The notes under the pieces were generated by a model, which saw only the letters and a list, made by a program, of their open reading frames with translations, made no database searches and was not told the origin of the DNA. Below are positions 19,763-51,111 of a stretch of DNA of 64,000 nucleotides, piece after piece. Source of the DNA: Candidatus Nitrosotenuis cloacae (GTDB taxonomy: Archaea; Thermoproteota; Nitrososphaeria; Nitrososphaerales; Nitrosopumilaceae); contig NZ_CP011097.1 in assembly GCF_000955905.1 (NCBI RefSeq), positions 124,001-188,000 of the forward strand, given 5' to 3'. The position numbers and the translations under genes are program-made. The stretch's first letter is position 1; each line of letters opens with the position of its first letter.

Positions 19763-20701
19763 ATGAAGATTATGATTACTGGTGGTTTTGGGTTTGTTGG
19801 CAGCCATCTATGTGATGCTCTGCTTAAGGATAAACATGAGCTGATAATACTAACCCGTAGCTATTCAAAAAAAAATAACATTAAACATATTCAAAAAAAA
19901 ATTATTATAGAAAAAATAGACGTAACTAATTTTAAAAAATTAAAAACCTCCATTGAAAAAAACAAACCAGATGTCATAATTCATCTCGCTGGTGAAACAT
20001 CACATTCAAAATCTTTTGAAAACCCGATACGTGACATAGAATTAAATGCAAAATCTACTCTCTATATCTTGGAAATAATTCGCACTCTCAACCTCAAGTG
20101 TAGATTCATTTTGGGCAGCACCTTCATTGTTATCGGCAAACCAACAAAATTACCAATAAACGAAGAGTCACCATGTAATCCTAATACAATTTATGGAACT
20201 AATCGACTAGCTAGTGAACATTATTCAAAGATATATAATAAAATGTATGGGTTAGATACAATAATATTCAGAATTACAAATTCGTATGGCCCAAGAGAGC
20301 AATATGTGTTAGGTAAAAATGCTATAAATTATTTATTATACAGATCTTACAAAGGAGAAAAAATATCCTTGTATGATAAAGGAAAAACTATTCGTGACTT
20401 AATCTACATATCTGATGTAGTTTCAGGAATCAAAACCATTATGAAAAAAGGTAAACCCGGCGAACTTTATTGGATATCATCATATCAAAAAACCTCATTA
20501 TACAAGATTGGTCAATTATTGAAAAAATATACAAACACAGTTGTCTCATATGTTGAATCTCCATCATATGCAAGGAAAGTAGATGTGGGAAATTTTATAG
20601 TCGATAATAAAAAGCTAAAATCATTGGGCTGGAAGCCAAAAGTCTCAATTAATAAAGGAATTCAATACACACTAAATTATTTTCAATCTGTGAATCTATA
20701 G
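19763..20701 (+). CDS. NAD-dependent epimerase/dehydratase with YxxxR in place of YxxxK
   Basis: A 312-aa extended SDR starting at ATG 19763 (MKIMITGGFGFVGSH). An in-frame extension back to 19598 runs into the divergent gene and does not resemble the family, so I reject it. The Rossmann motif GGFGFVG (7-13) is normal, and the Ser/Thr pair is in LGSTFIVIG. The catalytic motif reads Tyr144-Gly-Thr-Asn-Arg148, so the usual Lys is Arg. The C-terminal part has RDLIYISDVVSGI and LGWKPKVSINKGI. It may be a diverged active epimerase or a catalytically altered one. Its stop overlaps the convergent deacetylase gene by 6 bp. It is very A+T-rich near 19870. Confidence 0.78.
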   Translation: MKIMITGGFGFVGSHLCDALLKDKHELIILTRSYSKKNNIKHIQKKIIIEKIDVTNFKKLKTSIEKNKPDVIIHLAGETSHSKSFENPIRDIELNAKSTLYILEIIRTLNLKCRFILGSTFIVIGKPTKLPINEESPCNPNTIYGTNRLASEHYSKIYNKMYGLDTIIFRITNSYGPREQYVLGKNAINYLLYRSYKGEKISLYDKGKTIRDLIYISDVVSGIKTIMKKGKPGELYWISSYQKTSLYKIGQLLKKYTNTVVSYVESPSYARKVDVGNFIVDNKKLKSLGWKPKVSINKGIQYTLNYFQSVNL

Positions 20702-21532
20702 ATTGTATTTTTGTATGTATCTGCTAAACGAAGTAAATTCAAATTTTTTTAACAACTCATCCATTCTTGATAGAGTATTTTTAAGATTATGATAAGTAAT
20801 GAATCTATCTTTGATTGACATTGAAATTTTTGGCATAAATTCTGGCGTGAGCTCCCATGAATGAATATAAAACGTCGAAGGAATTCTCATCTTCTCATAT
20901 TCAATAATTGATTTTTTGATTACGCTCAAAGGTAAAAACCGAATGTAAAAACCTCCAGATGTGGGAACTGTTCTACCAAGCAATTTTCCAACTAGTAATG
21001 GAAATTCTATCAATTCTCCCTCAGGATCATTCTTTTCAAGAGATTTTGATGTTATTTTATACGGTTTAATCTCAGAATTTGTGAATCCGTACATACTCGT
21101 TTTCACAGGCATGATACTACTGTCATAAGAATAACCATTATTCACTAGCATCTCTATCGCCCATGAACTTTGATAATTCAAAGAAAACGTTGGTGCTCTA
21201 AATCCTCTTGATCTCTTTTCCGTCAAATTTGCAAATTTTATAATTTCCTCTTGAAATTTTTCTTTAAAATTAGGCTCATCAAGTCTTGTATGGTGCATGG
21301 TATGAAACCCAATCTCATGACCTTGATTGATTATTTTATCAAGAATTTCTGGTTTGTATTCTAACAATTCACCTACCACAAAAAAAGTTGCATACACATT
21401 CTTGATACGCAAAAAATCAAGTATCTTATCCAACCCATTAATCACAGTTGGAGTTCTCTTCTTTCCATCCAAATATCTCTGGATTAACTGTGGATGAAAC
21501 CAATCTTCAAAGTCTATGCCAAGAATATTCAT
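20696..21532 (-). CDS. NodB-like polysaccharide deacetylase
   Basis: A 278-aa carbohydrate esterase family 4 protein similar to the deacetylases of exopolysaccharide loci. The N-terminus LGIDFEDWFHPQ holds the catalytic Asp of motif 1; the metal-binding His pair is His77/His81 (GFHTMHHTRL); motif 3 is RGFRAPTFSLN; a C-terminal FYIHSWELTP closes the domain. It would remove N- or O-acetyl groups from a glycan or sugar lipid. No signal peptide is visible, so it should act inside the cell, on precursors. It is co-directional with the hexapeptide acyltransferase 21 bp upstream. Confidence 0.85.
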   Translation of the reverse strand: MNILGIDFEDWFHPQLIQRYLDGKKRTPTVINGLDKILDFLRIKNVYATFFVVGELLEYKPEILDKIINQGHEIGFHTMHHTRLDEPNFKEKFQEEIIKFANLTEKRSRGFRAPTFSLNYQSSWAIEMLVNNGYSYDSSIMPVKTSMYGFTNSEIKPYKITSKSLEKNDPEGELIEFPLLVGKLLGRTVPTSGGFYIRFLPLSVIKKSIIEYEKMRIPSTFYIHSWELTPEFMPKISMSIKDRFITYHNLKNTLSRMDELLKKFEFTSFSRYIQKYNL

Positions 21533-21553: not shown

Positions 21554-22090
21554 CTAATGCTCAATTCGTTTCACAATTCTTGCTGGGTTTCCAACAACTA
21601 CACAATAATCTGGCACATTTTCAAAAACAACACTTCCAGCACCAATTAACGAGTTCTCTCCTATGGTTACTCCGGCAGTAACTATACAACCGGGAAATAA
21701 CACTGCCCCAGATTTGATGTTTACAGATTCAACTTTTCTAGGATATCCATTTTTTTTTAAAAATAGATTTGTAGTAGGATTTGTATGAGCAAAAATCAAA
21801 GTGTTACTCCCTATAGTAACATTATCTCCTATTGTTACAAGCTGAGGATAAAGCAAATCAATCAAGACATATGGAGAAAAATGGCATTTCTTTCCAATTT
21901 TGACCCCTCTTGATCTCTGTAGCTTTATGGCAAAACCTGAAAATGGCGTAGAATGTGCAATTGTGTGTAGTATCCATGTCTTAAGAAATTTGCATCGTAG
22001 TTGAAATCTGCCACAGGTACCACTATATCCATAATATTGCATAATTTCTTGCTCATTAACAGAAAAAGCATCCATCTCAATATCTTTCAT
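21554..22090 (-). CDS. left-handed beta-helix (hexapeptide) acyltransferase
   Basis: A 178-aa LbH-fold acetyltransferase-like protein. Hexapeptide repeats run from about residue 66 to 165 (VTIGDNVTIGSNTLI, VNIKSGAVLFPGCIVTAGVTIG, SLIGAGSVVFENV), ending in the common VVGNPARIVKRI cap. The His of FAHTNP (about 100) is a candidate catalytic base. The N-terminal 50 residues are helical. It would O- or N-acylate a sugar, from acetyl-CoA or possibly from the acyl carrier protein encoded divergently at 23961. It forms a two-gene unit with the NodB-like deacetylase, so together they could set acylation state. Confidence 0.8.
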   Translation of the reverse strand: MKDIEMDAFSVNEQEIMQYYGYSGTCGRFQLRCKFLKTWILHTIAHSTPFSGFAIKLQRSRGVKIGKKCHFSPYVLIDLLYPQLVTIGDNVTIGSNTLIFAHTNPTTNLFLKKNGYPRKVESVNIKSGAVLFPGCIVTAGVTIGENSLIGAGSVVFENVPDYCVVVGNPARIVKRIEH

Positions 22091-22209: not shown

Positions 22210-23961
22210 ATGAGAGAACAAAAATTATCTTACTATATCAATAAAGCATCTGAATTAAACAACCAATCTTTTGATCAAAAAATTCGTATTGCTCTGTTGG
22301 GAAGTTTTACATTAAATGGACTTGCTGAAACGATACAAGTAAAGTGCGCAGAAAAAAAAATCCAATGTACTACATACGTTGGAAACTATAACCAATATAA
22401 TCAGGAAATATTAAACCCTACAAGTAATCTTTACAAATTTAATCCGGAAATCTCATTTCTTCTTATAGATACAAGAACGTTACTCATGGATTTATTCCAT
22501 CACTCTCACTCGGTATCCGTAGAAGAAAGAAGAAAACTAGTTGATGAGAAGATAAACAAAATATTATCTTTGGCAACAAAATTTTCTCAAACAACAAAAT
22601 CAAAATTGGTCTTAGCGAATTTTTCAATTCCAACATTTTCTTCATATGGAATTTTTGAAAATAAAACCGACTTTGGTTTTCACAGAATGTTAAATGAAAT
22701 TAATACCAAGATATCTGACGCACTGTCAAATTCAGACTCTGTATATGTTTATGATTTTGCTGGATTTGTAACAAAATTCGGTGAGAAGAATATCTTCGAT
22801 TACAAACAGTTTTTCTTTGGCGACATGAAAATTTCACTTGATTATATTCCATATCTTGCATCGAATCTAATGTCGTATGTGATAGGCTATATGGGAATAT
22901 CAAAAAAATGCATAGTATTAGATCTTGATAATACCTTGTGGGGAGGAATTGTTGGTGAGGATGGTTTTAATGGCTTAAAGTTAGGGCCAGAACCGCCAGG
23001 AAATGCATTCATGGAATTTCAAAAAGTACTACTCTCTCTTCACCAGCGAGGTATAATTCTCGCAATAAACAGCAAAAACAACTATGATGATGCAATTAAA
23101 GTAATCCGAGATCATCCATACATGCAACTAAGAGAAGATCATTTTGCATCTTTGAAAATAAACTGGAATGACAAGGTGTCAAACATGAAAGATATTGCAA
23201 ATGAGATCAATATTGGTTTGGACAGTATTGTTTTTTTTGATGATGATCCAGTAAATAGAGAATATATGAGAATTAATCTTCCGCAGGTTGAAACTATTGA
23301 ATTACCTCAAGATTCGTCAGAATTTGTAAATATTCTAAAAGATCTTAATGAATTCAGTGTCTTGAACATAACACAGGAAGATCAACAAAGAGGTAAAATG
23401 TATTCAGAACAAAGAAAACGAGTTGAGCTAGAAAAATCTACACCTGATCTAGAAGGTTTTCTAAAACAACTAGATCTTAAAATATCAATAAAAAAAGCCA
23501 ACGAATTTACAATACCAAGAATTTCTCAGCTTACATTAAAAACGAATCAATTTAATTTAACAACCAAAAGATATCAGGAAAATGACATCAAAAAATTTTC
23601 TCAGGACACAAATTATTTTATTGGATGTGCTCAAGTTGAAGATAAATTTGGTGACAATGGAATAACTGGGGTTTTCATAGTTTACAAAGAAAATCAAAAA
23701 GAATGGTTCCTAGATACATTTCTTCTTAGTTGTAGGGTTATGGGAAGAGAGGTGGAAAGGGGAATTCTTAGCCATATTATAAACAAAGCAAAAGAAGCTG
23801 GAGTTGAAAAAATAAGAGCGCAGTTTGTCCCAACTTCAAAAAATAAGCCAATTGAAGACTTTCTTCCTAATTGTGGATTCAAAAAAGATGCAGATTCTTG
23901 GGTCTATTCTATTAAATCATCATTTGAAATACCAAGCTGTCTTACAGTTAGTGCTGAATAA
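22210..23961 (+). CDS. fkbH: FkbH-like HAD-IIIC phosphatase / GNAT fusion
   Basis: A 583-aa protein with the FkbH layout: an N-terminal SGNH-like region (about 25-225), a HAD-IIIC domain (about 233-380) with nucleophile Asp238 and Asp240 in VLDLDNTLWGG, then FFDDDPVNREYMR, and a C-terminal GNAT-like domain (about 415-570; TNQFNLTTKRY, FLLSCRVMGREVE). FkbH proteins take 1,3-bisphosphoglycerate, remove its phosphate and load a glyceryl unit on an acyl carrier protein. Here the ACP gene begins on the stop codon (TAATG, 1-bp overlap). It is the first gene of a four-gene coupled set. In glycan loci such proteins may donate glycerate or a derivative to sugars; that step is inference. Confidence 0.88.
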   Translation: MREQKLSYYINKASELNNQSFDQKIRIALLGSFTLNGLAETIQVKCAEKKIQCTTYVGNYNQYNQEILNPTSNLYKFNPEISFLLIDTRTLLMDLFHHSHSVSVEERRKLVDEKINKILSLATKFSQTTKSKLVLANFSIPTFSSYGIFENKTDFGFHRMLNEINTKISDALSNSDSVYVYDFAGFVTKFGEKNIFDYKQFFFGDMKISLDYIPYLASNLMSYVIGYMGISKKCIVLDLDNTLWGGIVGEDGFNGLKLGPEPPGNAFMEFQKVLLSLHQRGIILAINSKNNYDDAIKVIRDHPYMQLREDHFASLKINWNDKVSNMKDIANEINIGLDSIVFFDDDPVNREYMRINLPQVETIELPQDSSEFVNILKDLNEFSVLNITQEDQQRGKMYSEQRKRVELEKSTPDLEGFLKQLDLKISIKKANEFTIPRISQLTLKTNQFNLTTKRYQENDIKKFSQDTNYFIGCAQVEDKFGDNGITGVFIVYKENQKEWFLDTFLLSCRVMGREVERGILSHIINKAKEAGVEKIRAQFVPTSKNKPIEDFLPNCGFKKDADSWVYSIKSSFEIPSCLTVSAE

Positions 23962-24197
23962 TGTCAAAGTTGTATGATCTTATTGCAAGAGTGATGAATG
24001 TGTCAGCAGCTTCGGTTACTGATGATTCCGGTCCGGAATCAATTGAAAGTTGGACTTCGTTTAAGGGATACGTCTTGCTTTATGAGCTGGAAAGTGAGTT
24101 TAAAGTAAAATTTACAATTGATGAAGCCATGGATGTAAAAAAAGTAGCCGACATTAAACGTCATCTTGGTAACCATGGAGTTGTGCTAAATGACTGA
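23961..24197 (+). CDS. acyl carrier protein
   Basis: A 78-aa ACP of the FkbJ type. Four-helix length and the attachment region ESIESWTSFKGYVLLYELE match carrier proteins, with Ser33 as the likely phosphopantetheine site (it aligns with the Ser of the NWDSLGHL-like motif). Helix III has the acidic FTIDEAMDV, and the C-terminal helix has VADIKRHL. Its start overlaps the FkbH stop by one base, and its end overlaps the MaoC gene by 8 bp. It should carry the C3 unit made by FkbH. Archaea usually lack ACP, so the gene is probably of bacterial origin; it has its own activating enzyme at 24621. Confidence 0.85.
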   Translation: MSKLYDLIARVMNVSAASVTDDSGPESIESWTSFKGYVLLYELESEFKVKFTIDEAMDVKKVADIKRHLGNHGVVLND

Positions 24198-24624
24198 TTT
24201 GCTAAATGAACTTAAATTTGAAGAAATCGAAATAGGTGATAGTAAAAAATTCACAGAAAAAATCAGTAAACTAAGTCTTGATAATTTTGCAATGCTTTCA
24301 GGTGATTACAATCCACTTCACATGGATGACAATTATGCAACAAACACAAAATTCAAAAAACGAGTTTGTCATGGTATGCTTCTCGCATCATTTTTTTCAA
24401 AACTGGTAGGAATGTATCTGCCGGGTAAAAACGCATTATATTTTTCTCAGACTCTAAATTTTCAAGCACCATGTTATGTAGGTGATACTATCACAGTTAC
24501 AGGTGAAGTAATTGACAAAAGTGACTCAACAAGAATAATAACTCTAAAGACACTAATTCACAATCAAACTGGAGTTTGTTTAGTGGACGGAATAGCCAAG
24601 ATAATAGTACGCCAAGATCAATGA
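24190..24624 (+). CDS. MaoC-like (R)-hydratase/dehydratase
   Basis: A 144-aa single hotdog-fold protein. The MaoC catalytic motif is complete: Asp39-Tyr-Asn41-Pro42-Leu-His44 within SGDYNPLHMDD, followed by the conserved VCHGMLLASFFSKL and the LNFQAPCYVGDTITVTGEV strand block. These enzymes hydrate or dehydrate (R)-3-hydroxyacyl thioesters on CoA or ACP. Placed between ACP and holo-ACP synthase, it may dehydrate a carrier-bound hydroxyacyl group. The start overlaps the ACP stop by 8 bp and the end overlaps acpS by 4 bp (ATGA), so expression is coupled. Confidence 0.85.
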   Translation: MTDLLNELKFEEIEIGDSKKFTEKISKLSLDNFAMLSGDYNPLHMDDNYATNTKFKKRVCHGMLLASFFSKLVGMYLPGKNALYFSQTLNFQAPCYVGDTITVTGEVIDKSDSTRIITLKTLIHNQTGVCLVDGIAKIIVRQDQ

Positions 24625-24980
24625 ATATGCTCAACAACATTGGAATTGGAATAGATATTGTTGATGTGGATAAATTCAAGCAAATTCCATTTGAATCAAA
24701 ACCTGGGTTTTACAAACAGATTTTTAATCAAACTGAAATAAAGTACTGTCTAAAATATAAAAACTATCATGAACATTTTGCAGGAAAATTTGCAATCAAG
24801 GAAGCAGTAAAAAAATCGATACGCAACAGAGTACACATGATAGATATAGAAACATATCATATAAAGTCAAAACCGCATGTGCAACTAAAAAAACTAGCAA
24901 GTAATTATTCATTTTATGTATCTATGAGTCATGAAAAAAACCTAGCAGTTGCAATCGTGATATCAGAACTTACAATTTAA
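24621..24980 (+). CDS. acpS: holo-ACP synthase (4'-phosphopantetheinyl transferase)
   Basis: A 119-aa AcpS-type transferase that attaches CoA-derived phosphopantetheine to the ACP serine. Motifs: GIGIDIVDVDKF (8-19) with Mg-binding Asp12, FAGKFAIKEAV (53-63) with Glu61 and Lys60, and a C-terminal SMSHEKNLAVAIV. The ATG at 24621 overlaps the MaoC stop as ATGA. A longer in-frame reading exists but runs 45 bp into MaoC and lacks family similarity. A dedicated AcpS next to its ACP makes the cassette independent of host functions. It converges on the GT2 gene with a 2-bp gap. Confidence 0.88.
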   Translation: MNMLNNIGIGIDIVDVDKFKQIPFESKPGFYKQIFNQTEIKYCLKYKNYHEHFAGKFAIKEAVKKSIRNRVHMIDIETYHIKSKPHVQLKKLASNYSFYVSMSHEKNLAVAIVISELTI

Positions 24981-24982
24981 GA

Positions 24983-26038
24983 TTATTTACTTAATATTTT
25001 GTTTTTAGCTTTTTGACTGAGAATTACTAATAGCGAATTGAAAATGCGACTTCCAAAACCATCACTCACATTTTTTGGAATAAAGATTTCATCTGGAAAT
25101 GATTTAATCAATTCCGTATCTGGAATTATCTTCTTAGCTTCTAATTCCTGATATTTTTCTACAATGTATTGTTTGTTCTTAATTATGTCAAGCTCAGCTC
25201 TGATCTTTGCACCAAGAAACCCTTTTGATATATAAAATATCCAAACCATAAGTTCTGTCTGTCTCAAATACGGAAGCATCTTTTTGTATGTATTTCTAGA
25301 ATAATGTGTCAAAAGACAATACCTTCTATTCCTTTCAAGCCAGAAAAACTTCTTTGAGCTCCATTTCAGACTATAGCTCTCGGCGTGATATATCGTAGCA
25401 AGTGGAACATAATATGATCTTATTCCTAATTGAGCAGCCCTCCAACCCAAATCAAGATCATCGTGATACAAAAACAAAAATGAATCAAACAATCCAATTT
25501 TTTTTATAACTTGTTGCGAAGTAAAAAGGCAGGTACCTGAAGCATATCCTATTCGTTCTATTTCCTTTTGCTGATGGATATCAGGAATTCCTTTATCTCT
25601 TGCAAATCCAAACCCAAAAAGATGTATCATGTTACCAGTGCTTTGCAAAATATTTTCCTCATACAATGAAATTATCTTTGGCTGATAGAGTCCCTCACCA
25701 TGTTTTCTGTAAGCCGAAATAAGCTCTATTATCCAATTGTGATCTACTGTAGTGTCTGGATTGAGAATTACAATAAACTCTCCACTAGCCTCTCGTATCC
25801 CAACATTATTTCCTTCACAATATCCTAAATTTTGTTTGTTTTCAATTAATTTGATCTTGTCAAATTTTTCCTTGCATTTTTTGTGACTTTGGTCTTTTGA
25901 TGCATTATCGACAACAATTACTTCTATGTTATCATATGCTGTTCTGAAAACTGATTCTAAACAATTAAGCAACAATTCTCCTGCATTATAATTTAAAATT
26001 ATGATGCTTACTTTAGGATTAAACAATTTGTCTATCAA
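24983..26038 (-). CDS. GT2 family glycosyltransferase
   Basis: A 351-aa GT-A fold transferase similar to rhamnosyltransferases. It has VSIIILNYNAGELLLNCLES at the N-terminus, VIVVDNASKDQS, the donor-binding GEFIVILNPDTTVDHNW and the acceptor-side YHDDLDLGWRAAQLG (an ED-x-D-like motif). The frame extends further upstream to 26128, but that part overlaps the RmlA-type gene and is not family-like; the TTG at 26038 starts 8 bp after that gene's stop and is the best candidate. It is part of a dTDP-sugar unit (28121 to 24983), which suggests a dTDP-6-deoxyhexose donor. Confidence 0.8.
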   Translation of the reverse strand: MIDKLFNPKVSIIILNYNAGELLLNCLESVFRTAYDNIEVIVVDNASKDQSHKKCKEKFDKIKLIENKQNLGYCEGNNVGIREASGEFIVILNPDTTVDHNWIIELISAYRKHGEGLYQPKIISLYEENILQSTGNMIHLFGFGFARDKGIPDIHQQKEIERIGYASGTCLFTSQQVIKKIGLFDSFLFLYHDDLDLGWRAAQLGIRSYYVPLATIYHAESYSLKWSSKKFFWLERNRRYCLLTHYSRNTYKKMLPYLRQTELMVWIFYISKGFLGAKIRAELDIIKNKQYIVEKYQELEAKKIIPDTELIKSFPDEIFIPKNVSDGFGSRIFNSLLVILSQKAKNKILSK

Positions 26039-26045
26039 TTCACAA

Positions 26046-27107
26046 CTAGAGAGAAATCTTCGTTCCCTCTCCCAACAAAAACACTTTGTTTGGAGAACTT
26101 GATCTTGTAATTTCAGAATTAAACGCAATTATGCTGTCTTTGATGATAAAATCCCCATCAATAGTACAACTTGACATGATTATTGAGTTTTCAATATGAC
26201 AATTAGACAGCTTTGTGTTATCCCCTATACTTGTATTGGACCCAATGTTGGCATTAGGGCCAATCTGACAGTCCTTACCAATTATTACGGGGCCAGTTAA
26301 CTTGGAACCGTTTTTGATTGTGGTTCCAGAGCCAATCATGACATTTCCAGTTATGATTACATCCTCTTCTTCTTTACCTTCAAAATATGGCTTCATATCA
26401 CTTAGTATGACCTGATTCGCGTGTATGATATCCTGTGGAGTACCAGTATCTTTCCAGTAATCTGTTACCATATTGTAAATTATCTTGTATTCCTCTTGTA
26501 AGAGCATTTGAAGTGCATCTGTTATCTCATATTCATTTCTCCACGATGGTTTTAGTCTATCAATGATATCAAATATTGTGGGTGTAAGAAGATAGATACC
26601 AGTCACCGCAAGATTTGTTGGAGGATCTTTTGGCTTTTCTATTATTTTTTTTATGACACCATCTTTGATATCAGCTATTCCAAATTGTGTAGGATTGCTC
26701 ACTTCGCATAGCAAAATTGATGCACTAGCATCCGAGTCTTTGAATCTTTGGATATACTCCGTAATACTTTTTTTAAGAATATTGTCTCCTAAAAATACGA
26801 CAAACTTTTCACCATTTACAAATTCTTTACAAAGTCTTATTGCCTGTGCAATTCCACGTGGTGCGTCTTGAGAAATATATGTTAATTTTACACCAAATCT
26901 TTCACCATTACCGTAATATTCTTGGACTTTGTTTGAACCAGTACCACCAATAATTATCGCAATATCTGTGATGCCTGCATCTTTTAATGACTCTAGACAA
27001 TACTGTGACATTGGTTTGTTTGCAATTGGCAGTAATTGTTTCGGACCAGTATGTGTAAGTGGCCTTAATCTGGTGCCGTGGCCGCCATGTAAAATTATTC
27101 CTTTCAA
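26046..27107 (-). CDS. rmlA: glucose-1-phosphate thymidylyltransferase, long archaeal form
   Basis: A 353-aa sugar nucleotidyltransferase with an added C-terminal hexapeptide beta-helix. It forms dTDP-glucose (or another NDP-sugar) from glucose-1-phosphate. The nucleotide loop GGHGTRLRPLT (8-18) and KQLLPIANKP are intact, as is FLGDNIL (metal/dNTP region). The second half has VMIGSGTTIKNGSKLTGPVI repeats. Long forms of RmlA are common in archaea, and the next gene is a clear dTDP-glucose 4,6-dehydratase, so thymidylyltransferase is favoured over GlmU-type or UTP-dependent activity. The start is ATG; the intergenic gap to rmlB is 30 bp. Confidence 0.85.
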   Translation of the reverse strand: MKGIILHGGHGTRLRPLTHTGPKQLLPIANKPMSQYCLESLKDAGITDIAIIIGGTGSNKVQEYYGNGERFGVKLTYISQDAPRGIAQAIRLCKEFVNGEKFVVFLGDNILKKSITEYIQRFKDSDASASILLCEVSNPTQFGIADIKDGVIKKIIEKPKDPPTNLAVTGIYLLTPTIFDIIDRLKPSWRNEYEITDALQMLLQEEYKIIYNMVTDYWKDTGTPQDIIHANQVILSDMKPYFEGKEEEDVIITGNVMIGSGTTIKNGSKLTGPVIIGKDCQIGPNANIGSNTSIGDNTKLSNCHIENSIIMSSCTIDGDFIIKDSIIAFNSEITRSSSPNKVFLLGEGTKISL

Positions 27108-27137: not shown

Positions 27138-28121
27138 TTATCTAGTTTTCCAAGGTATTGTAAACGCCTCATTTTTGATGTGCCTGCGCCATTCTTTGTT
27201 TTGTTGGTACCACTCTATAGTTTGCTCTAAACCATCTTCAAATTTGTGAATAGGCCGCCATGATAACTTCCTTCGTATTTTGTTTGAATTGAGACTGTAT
27301 CTAAAATCATGACCTGGCCTATCTGAAGTAAACTCGATCAGGTTCTCTGATTTTTCCATTATCTTCAAAATTTTTTTCACAATTTTCAGATTATCTGCTT
27401 CATTGTTTGCAGAGATATTGTAAGATTCACCTCTTTTCCCTTCAAATAAAACCCTGAAAATCGCATCACAATGATCTTGAACAAAAATCCAATCTCTAAT
27501 ATTTTTTCCAGTTCCATAAATTGGGATTTTTTTATTTTGTTCTGCTAGCAGTATTGTTTTTGGAATGAGTTTTTCAGGTGATTGTCTTGGGCCATAATTG
27601 TTAGTACATCGTGTTGTTATTACATCCGAATCATATGTGATGAAATACGAATTTACAAGATTCTCAGCTGCTGCCTTTGACGCGGCGTATGGGCTTGATG
27701 GATTGTATGGATATCTTTCTGTAGCGTTGGCTGATTTGAGGCTACCAAAAACTTCATCCGTGGATATTTGAATTAGTTTTTTCCTATGCCTTCGTACTGC
27801 TTCTAGTAATGTGTATGTTCCGTAGATATTTGAATCAATAAATGGTTGAGGATCAGAAATGCTTCTATCTACATGAGATTCTGCAGCAAAGTTGACTATT
27901 GCATCTATGTCTGAGGCAAGTTTATCAACTAGTTTTTTGTTGGTGATATTTCCCTTAATGTATCTGTATCTAGCATTGTTTTTTACTTGTTTTAGATTCT
28001 GTACATTTGAGCCTGGTAAACCAGCATCAATATTTGTTATTCTGAGTTTTGGATTTCTTAATGCATGTAGGATAAAATTACTACCAATAAAACCTAGGCC
28101 GCCAGTAACGAGAATCTTCAC
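27138..28121 (-). CDS. rmlB: dTDP-glucose 4,6-dehydratase
   Basis: A 327-aa extended SDR converting dTDP-glucose to dTDP-4-dehydro-6-deoxyglucose. Diagnostic sites: GGLGFIGSN (7-15), AAESHVDRSI (79-88), the catalytic Thr121-Asp122-Glu123 in STDEVFG, and Tyr145-x3-Lys149 (YAASK). NNYGPRQSPEKLIP and GKNIRDWIFVQDH are also typical of RmlB. The start is GTG. It is first in the minus-strand unit rmlB-rmlA-GT2 and divergent from the cupin gene, so the cupin probably acts on its product. Confidence 0.92.
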   Translation of the reverse strand: MKILVTGGLGFIGSNFILHALRNPKLRITNIDAGLPGSNVQNLKQVKNNARYRYIKGNITNKKLVDKLASDIDAIVNFAAESHVDRSISDPQPFIDSNIYGTYTLLEAVRRHRKKLIQISTDEVFGSLKSANATERYPYNPSSPYAASKAAAENLVNSYFITYDSDVITTRCTNNYGPRQSPEKLIPKTILLAEQNKKIPIYGTGKNIRDWIFVQDHCDAIFRVLFEGKRGESYNISANNEADNLKIVKKILKIMEKSENLIEFTSDRPGHDFRYSLNSNKIRRKLSWRPIHKFEDGLEQTIEWYQQNKEWRRHIKNEAFTIPWKTR

Positions 28122-28216: not shown

Positions 28217-28669
28217 GTGCAAGATAATACGATTCAATACATCAAGCTAGAAAAACATGACACTAAGGACATACATGATGGTCACATCAATGGATCTCTA
28301 ACTGTGATCTGGAGAGATTGGGATAAACCACTTGGAGTTGAACCAAAAATGGTCTATGTTTCATCAGTAAATCCGAGAGAGATTAAAGGACCCCATCTTC
28401 ACACAAAAAGAGACAGCTATTTTGTGTGCATTAGAGGTAAAGTTGTATTCATTGCAAAAGACATGGATGGAAAATATCATGAAATTGAGTCTAGTGAAGA
28501 TGAGCCTGTCTTGATACAAATACCAAAAAATTATCCTTCAGCACACATCAATGTATCTGATAAAATAGCTACAGTACTCACATTGGCAAATCCTGCATGG
28601 AGGCCAAATGATAATGAAATGGTAAATGTTGATTTTGATGATTATGATTGGAAAAAATGGAAAATATAA
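28217..28669 (+). CDS. cupin-fold sugar-nucleotide epimerase/isomerase (RmlC-related)
   Basis: A 150-aa cupin protein related to dTDP-4-dehydrorhamnose 3,5-epimerase-like enzymes. It carries the HLHTKRDSYF metal- or substrate-type cupin box (about 61-70), CIRGKVVFIAKD, and IPKNYPSAHINVSD (the second box with His). It is shorter than RmlC (about 180 aa) and could equally be a 3,4-ketoisomerase of the FdtA kind. It is divergent from rmlB with a 95-bp shared promoter region, supporting a role on dTDP-4-keto-6-deoxyglucose. The start is GTG. No RmlD partner lies next to it; an RmlD-like protein is at 30936. Confidence 0.7.
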   Translation: MQDNTIQYIKLEKHDTKDIHDGHINGSLTVIWRDWDKPLGVEPKMVYVSSVNPREIKGPHLHTKRDSYFVCIRGKVVFIAKDMDGKYHEIESSEDEPVLIQIPKNYPSAHINVSDKIATVLTLANPAWRPNDNEMVNVDFDDYDWKKWKI

Positions 28670-39172: not shown

Positions 39173-40681
39173 ATGAATGATAAAATAATTTTTTGGCTTG
39201 ATAAAGATCTAAAACAATACTGTCTTTGTTATTATTTACAAAAGGAAATGGATGCCGACTTCTATGCAATTGTCGACACAACAAACAAGACTAAGTCATT
39301 TTTTGAAAACCAAAACCTGGTAAATTTCAAAAAGACATGGTATTATCACGACAACGTAATGCCAATTAAAAAACCAAATGTAGAATATCTAGCCTCATTT
39401 GAGGAAAAGTATGGCATAGAACTTTGGAAATTGGCCGTAAATGATAGAATTTTTTATCGATTTAATGACTTTTACAAATTTTCCAAAAATGAAATCTTAT
39501 CTATATTAGAAAATGAATGTAGATTCTTTGAGCATATTCTAGATGATATACAACCAAATTATGTCATAATGCATGAACCATACTCTCATCAAGATGAACT
39601 TTTTTACGAGTTATGTAAAGTCAAAGGAATCAAAGTATTGGCGTCTTTCTTTTCAACGTTGGGTTACAGATGTGAAATCTCGCAGACTGTTCATTTTATG
39701 GATGAATTCAAAAACATTGAGACCAAATCCAATCCTCGAGGTTTTGATGAATTAATAAATTACTTGGAATCATTCAATCTTTCGGCTAAAATTAAAAAAC
39801 AGAATATAGACCCCTTTGGCAATAAAGTGAATATACTAAACGCTGCAATAGATTATCTGTTCCGGACAAAAAACGAAAACCAAAAAACACACTATACTTA
39901 TTTCGGCCGTTCTAAGTTGCGAGTTCTTCTAAACTCAATCAATGGTGCACTTAAGACTAAATGGCGTTGGCATTACCTAAACAAAAAACTCATTAAAAAT
40001 GTGGATTATGGCCAAAAATTCGTTTATTATCCATTACATATTGAACAGGAACGCTCTACTCTGATAGCAACACCATTTTACACAAACGATATAGAGTTTA
40101 TTCGAAATATTGTAAAATCACTGCCCATTAATTATACGCTATATGTAAAAGAGCATCCAAGCCAATTTACAAGACATTGGAGAAGCAAAAAAATCTATGA
40201 TGAGATTGCCAGCATACCTAATGTTTACCTTATTCATCCTCATGTATCGTCGCTGGATTTAGTGAAAAACTCGTCGCTTGTAATCACACTGAGTGGAACT
40301 GTGGCAATCGAAGCTGCGTTCCATCAAAAGCCCTCAATAACCTGCGCAGATTTTGATTATACATTTTTACCATCTGTTGAACGAATTGGCCGAATTGAAG
40401 ACTTACCAAAACTCATTAGAAAAAGTCTGAAAAAGAAAATAACCTCAGATGAACTAGACGCGTATGTTTCTCTTGTTGAAAAAAATACATTTGAATTTGA
40501 TGGCACGGACTTTGATAAGAAATCAACAAAAAAATTTTTTCATGGGGGGCGTCTCGCAGACGTTCATATCTCCAATCAAATGATGAAAGAATTTTTAGAT
40601 GAGAACGCATCTGTTTTGAGAGTTCTTGCAAGCGAACACCTTAAAAAAATTAATTACTTTAAAAATCAAACTCAAAATTAA
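39173..40681 (+). CDS. capsule-synthesis-like GT-B protein
   Basis: A 502-aa soluble protein. The last third matches the Kdo/sialyl-type capsule glycosyltransferase pattern: KFVYYPLHIEQERST, YTLYVKEHPSQF (the K-x-HP motif), VYLIHPHVSSLDLVK and VITLSGTVAIEAAFHQKPSI, where the Ser/Thr-Gly-Thr and Glu bind CMP-sugar phosphate in relatives. The N-terminal part is a unique alpha/beta region (NYVIMHEPYSHQDE). It may transfer a nonulosonic acid made by the neighbouring Neu/Pse pathways. The start is ATG with a TATA box 30 bp upstream. A similar C-terminal pattern is in the protein at 49240. Confidence 0.65.
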   Translation: MNDKIIFWLDKDLKQYCLCYYLQKEMDADFYAIVDTTNKTKSFFENQNLVNFKKTWYYHDNVMPIKKPNVEYLASFEEKYGIELWKLAVNDRIFYRFNDFYKFSKNEILSILENECRFFEHILDDIQPNYVIMHEPYSHQDELFYELCKVKGIKVLASFFSTLGYRCEISQTVHFMDEFKNIETKSNPRGFDELINYLESFNLSAKIKKQNIDPFGNKVNILNAAIDYLFRTKNENQKTHYTYFGRSKLRVLLNSINGALKTKWRWHYLNKKLIKNVDYGQKFVYYPLHIEQERSTLIATPFYTNDIEFIRNIVKSLPINYTLYVKEHPSQFTRHWRSKKIYDEIASIPNVYLIHPHVSSLDLVKNSSLVITLSGTVAIEAAFHQKPSITCADFDYTFLPSVERIGRIEDLPKLIRKSLKKKITSDELDAYVSLVEKNTFEFDGTDFDKKSTKKFFHGGRLADVHISNQMMKEFLDENASVLRVLASEHLKKINYFKNQTQN

Positions 40682-40810
40682 TTACTTGATCTAATTCATC
40701 GATCTGTTGTGAAGGGATCTATTGAATTCTATCTTATTATCACTACGATAGTGAAATAGTATAAACAATAGAGAACTTTATCAGGCAATGTAAAATTTTT
40801 ATTAATTGAT

Positions 40811-41965
40811 ATGGGACTATTTGGCAATAGTAATCTTCTAAAAAATATTGGTTCAATTGGATTAGTAAATATTGTAGGATCTCTGATCTCTGCGTTTTTT
40901 TGGATTTACCTTGCTGGATTGATGGGTTCTGAACAATATGGCTTATTGGCATACTATCTCTCTATTGCTGGTATATTTACATCCGTTTCTTTAATTGGAG
41001 GCCCTATGGTAATCACTGTTTTTACTGCAAAAAAAATTCCACTAACATCTACAATATGTTTGATATCTATTTCGACAAGTATATTGTGTAGTGTTATTCT
41101 TTATTTTGTTTTAAATAATGTTGGGATTAGCGTTTATGTCATCGGAGCTATAATCTACAATCTCTCAGTATCTGAATTATTAGGAAGAAAATTCTACAAA
41201 ACATATTCAATATATTTTATTTTACAAAAAACACTCTTTGTCGTATTTTCATTAATACTCTATTATGTTATGGGCCCAAGTGGCGTTTTAGTCGGTACCG
41301 GTCTGTCATTTTTGCTTTTTACAACAAGGGTCTATAGATCTTTTAGAGATGCAAGAATAAACTTTCAATTATTAAAGACAAAATGGAGCTTTATTGCAAA
41401 TAATTTTGTATTAGATCTAAGCTACGTCGTAAATGGTCAAATTGATAAATTGTTTATTGGCCCTATGTTTGGATTTATGACTCTTGGAAATTACTATTTA
41501 GGAATTCAAGTTCTTAACATGTTAGCAATTATCCCAGAATCAATACGAAAGTATACTCTACCAGAAGATTCCAGTGGAGCTAATACCAAAAAAATAAAAG
41601 TCATAACCGTATTTTTTTCTGGTTTCTTGGCATTAATAGGAATATTTATTGTTCCACAAATATTTCCTATTATTTTTCCAGCATATACTGAATCATTAGA
41701 TCTAATTCCTATTATTTCTATTTCAATTATACCTACCACCATATCAACTATGTACATCTCGCATTTTCTAGCTAAGGAACAGAGTTTCTACATTCTGATT
41801 ACAAGCATTGTTTCAATAATTACGATGGTATTGGGAATTTTTACGCTTGGATCGTTGTTTGGAATAATTGGTTTAGCATTCTCGCTAGTTTTGTCTGATG
41901 TATCTAGAGCAATTATGTTGTCTATGATACATCTTTATCAAAAAAGAGCACTGTCTAAATTTTGA
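40811..41965 (+). CDS. Wzx-like polysaccharide flippase (MOP superfamily)
   Basis: A 384-aa integral membrane protein with about 10-12 hydrophobic helices and the N-terminal IGSIGLVNIVGSLISAFFWI entry helix of O-antigen translocases. QYGLLAYYLSIAGI and DKLFIGPMFGFMTLGNYYLG (about 215-235) are typical Wzx-family segments. It is somewhat short for the family (usually 420-480 aa), apparently lacking the last pair of helices. It would move undecaprenyl- or dolichol-linked glycans across the membrane and is the only flippase in the window. The start is ATG. Confidence 0.8.
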   Translation: MGLFGNSNLLKNIGSIGLVNIVGSLISAFFWIYLAGLMGSEQYGLLAYYLSIAGIFTSVSLIGGPMVITVFTAKKIPLTSTICLISISTSILCSVILYFVLNNVGISVYVIGAIIYNLSVSELLGRKFYKTYSIYFILQKTLFVVFSLILYYVMGPSGVLVGTGLSFLLFTTRVYRSFRDARINFQLLKTKWSFIANNFVLDLSYVVNGQIDKLFIGPMFGFMTLGNYYLGIQVLNMLAIIPESIRKYTLPEDSSGANTKKIKVITVFFSGFLALIGIFIVPQIFPIIFPAYTESLDLIPIISISIIPTTISTMYISHFLAKEQSFYILITSIVSIITMVLGIFTLGSLFGIIGLAFSLVLSDVSRAIMLSMIHLYQKRALSKF

Positions 41966-42016
41966 TCAAACAATTTACAACAAGGAAATAAATACTTGAA
42001 TTATTTTTAATGTTTA

Positions 42017-43156
42017 ATGCGGTATTGTAAAAAATGTTTATACCCTGATACTAAACCACAATTACAATTTGATAAAAATGGTGTTTGTAGCGCGTGCGTG
42101 AATAATCTACTGAAAGAAAATATAGACTGGGATAAAAAAAGAGAAGTTTTTTTACGAATTATTGAAAAATACCGAAGTAAAAACGGAAGCAACTATGATT
42201 GTATAATTCCAGTTAGCGGAGGTAAGGATTCAACTTTTCAAACATACACGATGAAAGAAACATTTGGCTTGAATCCATTGGTGGTAAATTTTCATCCCCT
42301 TGATCAAACTGAGATCGGAAAGAAAAATTTGGAAAACTTGAAAAAATTAGATGTCGATTGTATTGAATTTTCTCCAAAACCCAAGATATATTCAAAACTC
42401 GCAAAATTTGGGCTAACTGAACTAGGTGATTTTCAATGGCCAGAACATATTGGAATTTTCACAGTGCCTGTACAAATAGCAGTTAAATATAAAATTCCGT
42501 TAATCATATGGGGAGAAAACCCCCAATTTGAATACGGTGCATTGACCAATATTGATGAAGAAACTATTCTAGATAAACAATGGACTGAAAAACATGGTGG
42601 ATATTTTCTTGATAAAATTACTCCACAAGATATGACAAAATATGGATTTGAAATGAAAGACCTGAAACCGTATCTCTATCCGTCCGATGAGGAGATTAAG
42701 GAGGTTGGTGTAACGGGAGTTTTTCTTGGCTCTTATATCAAATGGGATATCTTCAAACAACTAGATTTGGTAAAAAAATTAGGTTTTTCAGAAAACAACG
42801 AGGATAAAGAAGGAACTTATCTGAGGTGGGAAAACCTCGATGTATATTTTACGGTTTTTCACGACTATTTTAAATTCTTAAAATACGGATTTGGACGAGC
42901 CACTGATCATGCCTCAATAGAGATACGATATGGTAGAATTACAAGAGAGCAAGGTATTGAATTAGTTAAAAAACATGAAGGTAAGATACCACGAAAATAT
43001 CTCAAAGAGTTTTTGCAGTCTGCAGAAATTACAGAAAATGAATTTCATAAAATATGTGATAAATTTACTAACAAAGATATATTTTTGACCAATAATGATG
43101 GAACTATATCTAAAGATAGCGAAAATAATCCTATCTTAAGAAATCCGATTCAATGA
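42017..43156 (+). CDS. N-acetyl sugar amidotransferase (PseA/WbpG-like)
   Basis: A 379-aa PP-loop ATPase with an N-terminal zinc site (Cys4, Cys7, Cys24, Cys27) and the ATP pyrophosphatase loop PVSGGKDST (65-73). Family markers VVNFHPLDQTEIG, IPLIIWGENPQFEYG and the DHASIEIRYGRI region are present. WbpG/PseA enzymes turn N-acetyl into N-acetimidoyl (acetamidino) groups on uronic or nonulosonic sugars, and WbpG needs HisH/HisF-type ammonia donors, which are not in the window. It adjoins the NeuC-NeuB genes, so an acetamidino-nonulosonate is a fair inference. The start is ATG. Confidence 0.85.
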   Translation: MRYCKKCLYPDTKPQLQFDKNGVCSACVNNLLKENIDWDKKREVFLRIIEKYRSKNGSNYDCIIPVSGGKDSTFQTYTMKETFGLNPLVVNFHPLDQTEIGKKNLENLKKLDVDCIEFSPKPKIYSKLAKFGLTELGDFQWPEHIGIFTVPVQIAVKYKIPLIIWGENPQFEYGALTNIDEETILDKQWTEKHGGYFLDKITPQDMTKYGFEMKDLKPYLYPSDEEIKEVGVTGVFLGSYIKWDIFKQLDLVKKLGFSENNEDKEGTYLRWENLDVYFTVFHDYFKFLKYGFGRATDHASIEIRYGRITREQGIELVKKHEGKIPRKYLKEFLQSAEITENEFHKICDKFTNKDIFLTNNDGTISKDSENNPILRNPIQ

Positions 43157-49239: not shown

Positions 49240-51111
49240 TTAGAAGGTATCTAAAATTTTTGTTAACACTTGCGACGCACACCCATGATTAGACAAGTAT
49301 TGCTCTAAAAATTTTTTACTATTCAGGTTTATTTCGTTTTTCAGCTCAGCGTTGCTCAGCATTTTCTTAATTCCATCTTCTATGTCTTGTTCCTTGGTGA
49401 TAGATAGTACCGCATTCATTTTTGCAATCTGGCTTTCTTCTGCCCATTTTTCAATTTGTAATGAAATTGTAGGTTTGTTTAGTATTATAGATTCCAAGGC
49501 AGTCGTAGAATTGTTGAATGTTATTAACAACTCACAGGAACTGATTAAATCCTTCAGATCTGTTTCTAGCACTATTGGTATTTTATCGTCTATTTCTTTG
49601 ATAAGTTCAAGCATGTTGTTTATTGAGTCCGGTTGAGGATGCGGTTTGATAATCAATTGCCTGCCCAGTTTTTTTGAAACTCTGCAAACTTCTCTAACAA
49701 AGTTTTCAAATTTTATATGAACATCAGAAGTAGATCCTTCTGCAAAAACTCCCGAGGCGCCAGTAGTTGTAAATAATATCCTCCCATTGTCTTTTGTCGC
49801 CTTACTGAAATGAAAAAATTCATCATGACGAGGACTACCAGAAATTAAAATATCTTTTTCTTGATGATTATGATTCAGTGCAAAAGATTTTGTTAATTCT
49901 CCCCATACTGCTTGTTTATCACTCATAAATGGAGATGAGAAATGCGCAAGAAACCTGGAAAATTTATCCCATGGGGGTGAGTTTGCAAGCATTCCATGTT
50001 GTAATAACACTGAAGGAATTTCTTTTCTTTTTGACAAGTTAAGAATCTCTTTTTCTTCTTGGGCAGTTTCAGCCCATTCTAAAATGACAGATATGTCAAA
50101 TCCTTCAAAGAGATGTTCAAGTAAAGTCATTCTTCTGAGAGATTCTGTGAATCTGGAAATGCATGTTTTAGTAAAAGTGTTTTTGATTGAATTCCACAGT
50201 GAATATGACTGAACAGTAAAAATGCTTTCAAAAACGTCATCTAGTTCAAACATTTTAGTTAGATTTTCTCCGAGTTTGATCGTTTCCATCTTTATTCTAT
50301 TTCGCTCATATTTTTCAAAATCATTAAGATTGAGTATAATACATTTTGTGCTTTTGACAATCTGTATACTTTTAAGATTCCAGATGGCAGGTCGTCTCTG
50401 ATTTAATAATAAAATATTTTTATCTAGTTTAGATAATTCTTTTAATAATGTTTTGTAGGAAACAGGATTAAAATCCAAGAGTAGTACTGATTTTTGATGT
50501 TTTAAATTAATCGAGTTTAGGCCAAAAAAAGATTTTGTAATGTTGTCAAAAATATTTTTTATTTTAAGATAATTGTTTTTTGAGAGTTTGATAGAAATCG
50601 GAATCGGGCCGATGTTATATTTTACATTTATGGTATCAAAATACATTGAATCAGTTTTGGGTTTTTGTAATGAAATTATTTTAATATTTTTTGTATTGCA
50701 TATAGTTTTAACAAATTCGTCTACGTTGGTAGAAGTGATAATTGTTTTTGGATTCTCTTTTTCAATTATCCGAAAAATTGAGATTGCTTTTATATACACT
50801 GATAAGATATAATGAAAAAGCTCAAGCTCGATAAGACTACCAAGATTTACTCCCTGATACATCAAAAATGGTTTTAACGAATCTTGATTGTACCAATTTG
50901 TAGTTATGTCTATTGATTTATCGTCAATGAAAGTTTTATCCTCTTTAGTAAGATATTGATCTCCTAACTCATGTTCTAAACCGTTTTTTTCCAAGGTTCT
51001 ATGAGCAAAATAATTGAGCGCAAATGTTTGTACAGTTTTGTGACGAATTGTCTCTTCTTTCAATTTTATAATATCAAAATTTTCATCCAAAATTGATATG
51101 GTATTATTCAT
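49240..51111 (-). CDS. large capsule-synthesis-like GT-B protein
   Basis: A 623-aa soluble protein without membrane helices. The C-terminal half shows LLQHGMLANSPPWDKF, ISGSPRHDEFFHF, LIIKPHPQPDSINNM (K-x-HP motif) and LITFNNSTTALESIILNKP, a pattern shared with KpsC/KpsS-, polysialyl- and Kdo-type GT-B transferases and with the protein at 39173. The N-terminal 300 residues are diverged, Ile/Lys-rich and not recognised. It probably transfers a CMP-activated acidic sugar, given adjacent NeuA. The ATG is preceded by a 63-bp divergent region shared with the FkbM gene. Confidence 0.65.
   Translation of the reverse strand: MNNTISILDENFDIIKLKEETIRHKTVQTFALNYFAHRTLEKNGLEHELGDQYLTKEDKTFIDDKSIDITTNWYNQDSLKPFLMYQGVNLGSLIELELFHYILSVYIKAISIFRIIEKENPKTIITSTNVDEFVKTICNTKNIKIISLQKPKTDSMYFDTINVKYNIGPIPISIKLSKNNYLKIKNIFDNITKSFFGLNSINLKHQKSVLLLDFNPVSYKTLLKELSKLDKNILLLNQRRPAIWNLKSIQIVKSTKCIILNLNDFEKYERNRIKMETIKLGENLTKMFELDDVFESIFTVQSYSLWNSIKNTFTKTCISRFTESLRRMTLLEHLFEGFDISVILEWAETAQEEKEILNLSKRKEIPSVLLQHGMLANSPPWDKFSRFLAHFSSPFMSDKQAVWGELTKSFALNHNHQEKDILISGSPRHDEFFHFSKATKDNGRILFTTTGASGVFAEGSTSDVHIKFENFVREVCRVSKKLGRQLIIKPHPQPDSINNMLELIKEIDDKIPIVLETDLKDLISSCELLITFNNSTTALESIILNKPTISLQIEKWAEESQIAKMNAVLSITKEQDIEDGIKKMLSNAELKNEINLNSKKFLEQYLSNHGCASQVLTKILDTF

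Follow-up and report, generated by a model that had tools for sequence, protein, structure and literature searches.

A self-contained acyl carrier protein cassette in a thaumarchaeal glycan locus and its probable role in sugar acylation

Why would an archaeon keep an acyl carrier protein (ACP), together with an enzyme dedicated to activating it, among genes for cell-surface glycans? The question is raised by a 64,000-nucleotide stretch of the Candidatus Nitrosotenuis cloacae genome (contig NZ_CP011097.1, positions 124,001–188,000; hereafter, the window), in which four consecutive genes encode an FkbH-type loader, an ACP, a MaoC-type (R)-hydratase/dehydratase, and a holo-ACP synthase (AcpS-type phosphopantetheinyl transferase). 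Archaea are generally without the bacterial ACP machinery. In the published view, however, gene transfer has brought both an ACP and its synthase to a few unrelated archaea, so that an archaeal ACP per se, which the first-pass annotation of the window had called striking together with its activating enzyme, is not unprecedented (PMC3533463). The cassette is probably a modular system that supplies acyl-ACP for the acylation of glycans; it would load a glyceryl group from 1,3-bisphosphoglycerate and convert it on the carrier.

All four genes lie on the forward strand and overlap in series by 1, 8, and 4 bp: FkbH (22210..23961, 583 aa), ACP (23961..24197, 78 aa), MaoC (24190..24624, 144 aa), and AcpS (24621..24980, 119 aa), the last starting with ATG at 24621 rather than with the TTG at 24576 that opens the mechanical open reading frame (ORF). 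All are genuine, uninterrupted genes on which purifying selection acts (dN/dS 0.03–0.09 for each gene against the nearest relative, which is 80% identical, with dS near saturation). The host genome, a single 1.62 Mb contig, encodes one each of FkbH, ACP, AcpS, and MaoC, all within the cassette, and it also encodes phosphoglycerate kinase (PGK), the source of 1,3-bisphosphoglycerate. The arrangement first annotated, a self-contained cassette of four serially overlapping genes, was thus recovered at the same place and with the same overlaps, and the four identities were upheld, three by family models above their cut-offs and that of the ACP by its fold and Ser33.

The FkbH protein scored 317.4 bits against TIGR01686 (curated cut-off 146.7) and carries both the HAD Asp pair (D238, D240) and the C-terminal LSCR motif (C508, R509) by which we tested it; these four residues, together with S288, K322, D344, and D345, are identical in 104 of 104 FkbH homologues. 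Its AlphaFold2 model (pLDDT 91.9) comprises three domains, namely an SGNH/GDSL fold (residues 23–230), an MDP-1-like HAD phosphatase (231–385, DLDNTLWGG), and a GNAT domain (420–570, LSCRVMGRE), and the fold matches include PDB 3slr (Z 30.6), MDP-1 (Z 17.6), and GNATs (Z about 15); VIA-align lists mainly GNAT chains for this protein, and the absence of other folds there is no evidence. The chain 3slr is BF1531 of Bacteroides fragilis, which resembles FkbH in its SGNH-like and HAD domains (30% identity, root-mean-square deviation 2.2 over 375 residues), but the solved chain spans just the N-terminal part and the function of BF1531 is not known.

The ACP is a weak member of its family by sequence (PF00550: 18.9 bits, under the cut-off of 20.8), and its assignment therefore rests on the fold and on the predicted phosphopantetheine site, Ser33 (W-T-S-F). 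In its AlphaFold model (pLDDT 93.7), four helices adopt the ACP fold and helix II begins at residue 33, the best structural matches found with Foldseek are the Escherichia coli and Helicobacter pylori ACPs (TM about 0.8), and Ser33 is invariant in one alignment of homologues and conserved at 90% or more in another. Genome searches were made with a custom ACP alignment, given that PF00550 at its threshold detects no ACP in the host genome. One lokiarchaeal ACP (L047, 9714–9950) has Ala at the Ser position (W-D-A-M), reflecting either a sequencing error or an unmodified carrier. AcpS passed PF01648 (43.9 bits, cut-off 25) and TIGR00556 (57.7, cut-off 45.4), fell short of the narrower TIGR00516 (48.8 against 59.8), and retains the Mg-binding Asp and Glu (D12 and E61), both invariant among homologues. 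MaoC matched PF01575 at 75 bits (cut-off 27); the D-x-N-P-x-H motif that had been read as intact is present as SGDYNPLH, with D39, N41, P42, and H44 invariant across the family alignment.

The presence of AcpS in the cassette follows the host. Among loci with enough flanking sequence, picked by FkbH similarity, and in a scan to which Sfp-type enzymes are invisible, AcpS lay within 3 kb of FkbH at 27 of 28 thaumarchaeal loci, at 10 of 10 loci from other archaea, at 4 of 4 from the candidate phyla radiation (CPR), and at 0 of 40 from other bacteria. The other archaea and CPR differed from the other bacteria with a Fisher p-value of 3e-13, shared ancestry being ignored. Bacteria with fatty-acid synthesis already possess an AcpS. 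In a CPR genome paper, fabG was the sole fatty-acid synthesis gene reported (PMC4736985). An AcpS within the cluster would therefore be expected in archaeal and CPR hosts that are without the bacterial ACP or fatty-acid machinery, in contrast to other bacteria with an AcpS of their own; the self-contained form is what would be expected wherever a housekeeping AcpS is missing.

Compared across 105 distinct FkbH loci, the ACP adjoins FkbH in nearly all, whereas the slot after the ACP varies. MaoC fills it in most thaumarchaea, as in the window, and a VOC protein takes its place in others (G197, G321, G102, G363, G349, G371, and further genomes); MaoC was found in 43 loci, VOC in 27, and both together in none (Fisher p = 3.5e-8, ignoring shared ancestry). 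The VOC protein scored 70 bits against the methylmalonyl-CoA epimerase model TIGR03081, under the cut-off of 115, and has solved epimerases among its matches. MaoC is accompanied by an SDR similar to FabG and acetoacetyl-CoA reductase in three thaumarchaeal genomes (G029, G108, G233) and likewise in loci of Uhrbacteria, Omnitrophota, Pacearchaeota, Nitrospinota, and Parcubacteria. The MaoC slot is thus interchangeable among VOC, MaoC, and MaoC with SDR. On the thaumarchaeal FkbH tree, the MaoC and VOC labels require four changes (bootstrap range 3–4), while the well-supported branches alone remain compatible with a single change. The loader can be swapped as well: at one locus (L158, from genome G089 or G150, which between them hold both such variants), an AMP-binding ligase lies between the ACP and a hexapeptide transferase, with neither FkbH nor MaoC, and AcpS and the glycosyltransferase are kept; a second locus (L159) has the same spacing, the ligase having been scanned in L158 only. 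We put forward tentatively, at a little under an even chance, the generalization that archaea and candidate-phyla bacteria have exchangeable acyl-ACP cartridges for surface glycans in common. The carrier, AcpS, and transferase would stay constant, whereas the loader (FkbH or AMP ligase) and the tailoring enzyme (MaoC, MaoC with SDR, or VOC) could be swapped, the latter determining which group (glyceryl, epi-glyceryl, pyruvoyl, or lactoyl) a sugar receives. Such cartridges would give an ACP system a clear function in archaea without fatty-acid synthesis of the bacterial kind.

FkbH is present in 39 of 250 Nitrosopumilaceae genomes, spread over 7 of 22 genera (the G410 row being marginal), and more than 20 Nitrosopumilaceae share the four-gene order. 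In a 300-genome sample of the phylum, the Nitrosopumilaceae with an ACP and those with an AcpS were the same 13 genomes, counting one (G068) whose AcpS is present at the locus but was missed by the PF01648 scan; FkbH occurs in 11 of these 13. The ACP/AcpS pair in thaumarchaea is therefore patchy and linked, neither universal, which would have spoken against the original interpretation, nor a one-off. What was not supported was the impression of uniqueness, as either the cassette or its FkbH-ACP core occurs widely among Asgard archaea, Bathyarchaeia, Nanoarchaeota, Pacearchaeota, CPR, and ordinary bacteria. The cassette is also being lost in some lineages, where several stops interrupt FkbH (G233, L028 8834–10567; G320, C2:2–993). 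In the FkbH tree, thaumarchaea form one supported group adjoining rows of Nanoarchaeota and Pacearchaeota and of CPR and Omnitrophota, with Asgard archaea and Bathyarchaeia in a separate group, and exchange between domains is therefore likely. A search of viral contigs with a single protein returned no relative, and the three plasmid matches examined (about 30% identity) were set aside, lying in polyketide synthase (PKS)-like or other clusters without the shared four-gene order.

Other ACP-related loci came to light in the same survey. Six loci from Thermoproteota families f8, f10, f11, and f29 (L160–L163, L167, L168) hold a different AcpS without FkbH, adjoined in several of them by an ACP; by eye, the neighbours are phosphotransacetylase-like and acetate/butyrate kinase-like, with a sugar nucleotidyltransferase (PF13562 in L168), and these loci are possibly a second archaeal ACP system. 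In another genome (G239, L173 6010–9732), a DltD-like protein, an ACP, an SDR, and an MBOAT acyltransferase stand in a row, which suggests, from gene content, that some thaumarchaea use acyl-ACP to acylate across the membrane; a further MBOAT acyltransferase was called by eye in G233 (L028 12477–13721).

The surroundings of the cassette are those of a glycan locus, as had been annotated, with a glycosyltransferase, RmlA/RmlB, a deacetylase, and a hexapeptide transferase as constant neighbours. Upstream on the reverse strand lie the divergent left-handed beta-helix (hexapeptide) acyltransferase noted earlier at 21554 (21554..22090; PF00132 47 bits, with WcaF/NeuD-like NCBIfam matches), the proposed acyl-ACP:sugar transferase, and a polysaccharide deacetylase of the DUF3473/XrtA type (20696..21532; PF01522 and PF11959 above cut-off), which may free an acceptor amine. 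Given enough flank, the hexapeptide acyltransferase was found within 3 kb of FkbH at 26 of 28 thaumarchaeal and 9 of 10 other archaeal loci, and the deacetylase at 22 of 28 and 6 of 10, respectively. Downstream, also on the reverse strand, a family 2 glycosyltransferase (24983..26128; PF00535 95 bits), with a homologue at most sister loci and beside the AMP-ligase variant, precedes an RmlA-type glucose-1-phosphate thymidylyltransferase (26046..27107; TIGR01208 406 bits, cut-off 320), a conserved neighbour, and an RmlB-like sugar-nucleotide 4,6-dehydratase (27138..28121; assigned from reading the sequence, without a model scan), homologues of which stand beside RmlA at sister loci. An FdtA-like cupin ketoisomerase on the forward strand (28217..28669; PF05523 58 bits), conserved at many sister loci, hints at a dTDP-3-amino-3,6-dideoxyhexose route. 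GC content (window 14001–62000) is about 0.43 on the left and declines to about 0.30–0.35 over the glycan island; within the island, large ORFs of 379–623 aa at 39173–43156 and 49240–51111 had no Pfam match at E 1e-5, and no tRNA genes were found in the window.

These components suggest a sequence of reactions for which we infer substrate, product, acceptor, and the actual reaction of MaoC. AcpS would attach the phosphopantetheine arm to Ser33 of the ACP; the HAD domain of FkbH would strip the phosphate from 1,3-bisphosphoglycerate, and its C-terminal GNAT domain would hand the glyceryl group to the ACP, perhaps via Cys508, in line with the FkbH chemistry leading to glyceryl-ACP (described in PMC7489565). 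In the window genome, MaoC may then dehydrate glyceryl-ACP at the beta-hydroxyl to 2-hydroxyacryloyl- or pyruvoyl-ACP, or perform a related dehydration or hydration, and relatives with an additional SDR could go on to reduce pyruvoyl- to lactoyl-ACP, whereas in those with an epimerase-like VOC in the MaoC slot the alpha carbon of glyceryl-ACP could be inverted; all three tailoring enzymes would fit glyceryl-ACP chemistry. The acrylate-like substituent proposed earlier accordingly becomes one option, MaoC being one of several exchangeable tailoring enzymes. The likely exit of the acyl group is the divergent hexapeptide acyltransferase, which would transfer it to a sugar of a cell-surface glycan at an amino (or hydroxy) position; the adjacent deacetylase may free this acceptor, or the dTDP-amino-sugar genes may build it. 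The linkage of transferase and sugar genes within the locus is conserved, and acyl-ACP:sugar transfer itself is a prediction. The idea of the first-pass annotation that a C3 acid is loaded, altered, and put on a sugar thus remains the most likely, if inferred, reading, consistent with the conserved hexapeptide transferase, deacetylase, RmlA, RmlB, and FdtA linkage.

Several points weigh against this scheme. No biochemistry or glycan structure is known from any species that holds the cassette, and the only thaumarchaeal N-glycan that we found described, that of Ns. viennensis (whose cassette status was not checked), contains no C3 acyl group (PMC12153357). The role of Cys508 as an acyl carrier is a guess from its conservation, the hexapeptide transferase could use CoA, and MaoC in the window genome has no adjoining SDR, which makes the end product after dehydration ambiguous. 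Moreover, the nearest solved relatives of MaoC are (R)-specific enoyl-CoA hydratases (5cpg, 1iq6). Together with the FabG- and acetoacetyl-CoA-reductase-like SDR, and with the presence among the FkbH fold matches of the GNAT FdhC (5ktc), which transfers a 3-hydroxybutanoyl group to a 3-amino-3,6-dideoxy sugar, this similarity would fit an ACP carrying a C4-type acid (3-hydroxybutyryl or crotonyl) derived from CoA intermediates of thaumarchaeal carbon fixation, loaded by the FkbH GNAT domain and processed by PhaJ/FabG-like MaoC and SDR enzymes. We regard that route as unlikely, because the HAD phosphatase residues, invariant in 104 of 104 FkbH proteins, would be needless for a CoA-derived acid, an epimerase-like VOC replacing MaoC makes poor sense on crotonyl, and no strong ketosynthase is encoded in the host genome. 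Slightly less probable again is the transfer of unmodified D-glyceryl, with MaoC, VOC, and SDR working on other substrates or on a minor pool; four loci with FkbH, ACP, and AcpS without MaoC, VOC, or SDR nearby (L040, L046, L047, L054) agree with it, but the tight ACP/MaoC overlap (8 bp in many genomes), the fact that MaoC and VOC exclude each other, and the retained MaoC catalytic residues do not.

Two further explanations were judged largely on gene content. The FkbH proteins that we found in the literature belong to polyketide or peptide routes, which would fit a pathway to a secondary metabolite (of tetronate or methoxymalonyl-ACP type) instead of to a glycan; this is very improbable given the constant glycan neighbours and the lack, beside the cassette, of a ketosynthase, PKS module, FabH-like tetronate enzyme, or O-methyltransferase/dehydrogenase set. 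Both specific models were rejected, the tetronate glycerate-utilization operon (FkbH, ACP, FabH-like protein, acyltransferase, and dehydratase) since no FabH-like gene occurs among the neighbours, and the methoxymalonyl-ACP cluster (FkbH, ACP, two dehydrogenases, and an O-methyltransferase) since the neighbours here differ. ACP, AcpS, and MaoC are fatty-acid-type parts and archaeal ACPs have been attributed to gene transfer (PMC3533463), so a remnant or nascent fatty-acid synthesis of bacterial origin was also considered; it was rejected on gene content and seems scarcely credible, as a ketosynthase-family search of the host genome gave a single weak match (23.6 bits) and no strong fatty-acid-type ketosynthase, FkbH is no part of fatty-acid synthesis, and the cassette occurs patchily, within glycan loci.

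The archaeal ACP described here has a sole, dedicated activating enzyme, and its likely purpose is the acylation of surface sugars with a group drawn from an intermediate of glycolysis. From the exchangeable tailoring slot one can predict, in a testable manner, the C3 group that each species would bear, and the slot hints at fast cell-surface variation in abundant ammonia oxidizers, for which phage pressure is a possible, speculative cause.

The individual parts are known from other systems, but we found no description of their combination into an ACP cassette with exchangeable members in the glycan loci of archaea, with an AcpS that tracks archaeal and CPR hosts; our literature search returned no paper linking FkbH with O-antigen, and FkbH, polysaccharide, and ACP combined gave two unrelated matches only. 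Left-handed beta-helix sugar N-acyltransferases (FdtC/QdtC/PglD-like) share the fold family and the dTDP-amino-sugar loci seen here; the known members use acetyl-CoA, whereas an acyl-ACP donor is proposed for the cassette. The FkbH/FkbJ glyceryl-ACP systems (FK520, tetronate, and methoxymalonyl-ACP; Mad7/Mad8 and Mad14/Mad12; PMC7489565) likewise place an FkbH-like protein of the same family model beside a stand-alone ACP, but the cassette is without PKS, FabH-like, or methoxymalonate enzymes and instead combines MaoC (or VOC, or MaoC with SDR) and AcpS in a glycan locus of an archaeal host. In the tetronate branch of the Vibrio cholerae O1 O-antigen (wbeL and its neighbours; PMC3441752), a hydroxy acid made by a dedicated block is similarly attached to a 6-deoxy-amino sugar, perosamine, at its amino group. 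That system differs in its loader, which is other than FkbH, in its C4 acid, and in a host with its own fatty-acid synthesis. Its tetronate block presumably holds an ACP and an AMP ligase, and in this it would resemble the archaeal variant in which an AMP-binding ligase stands in the place of FkbH.

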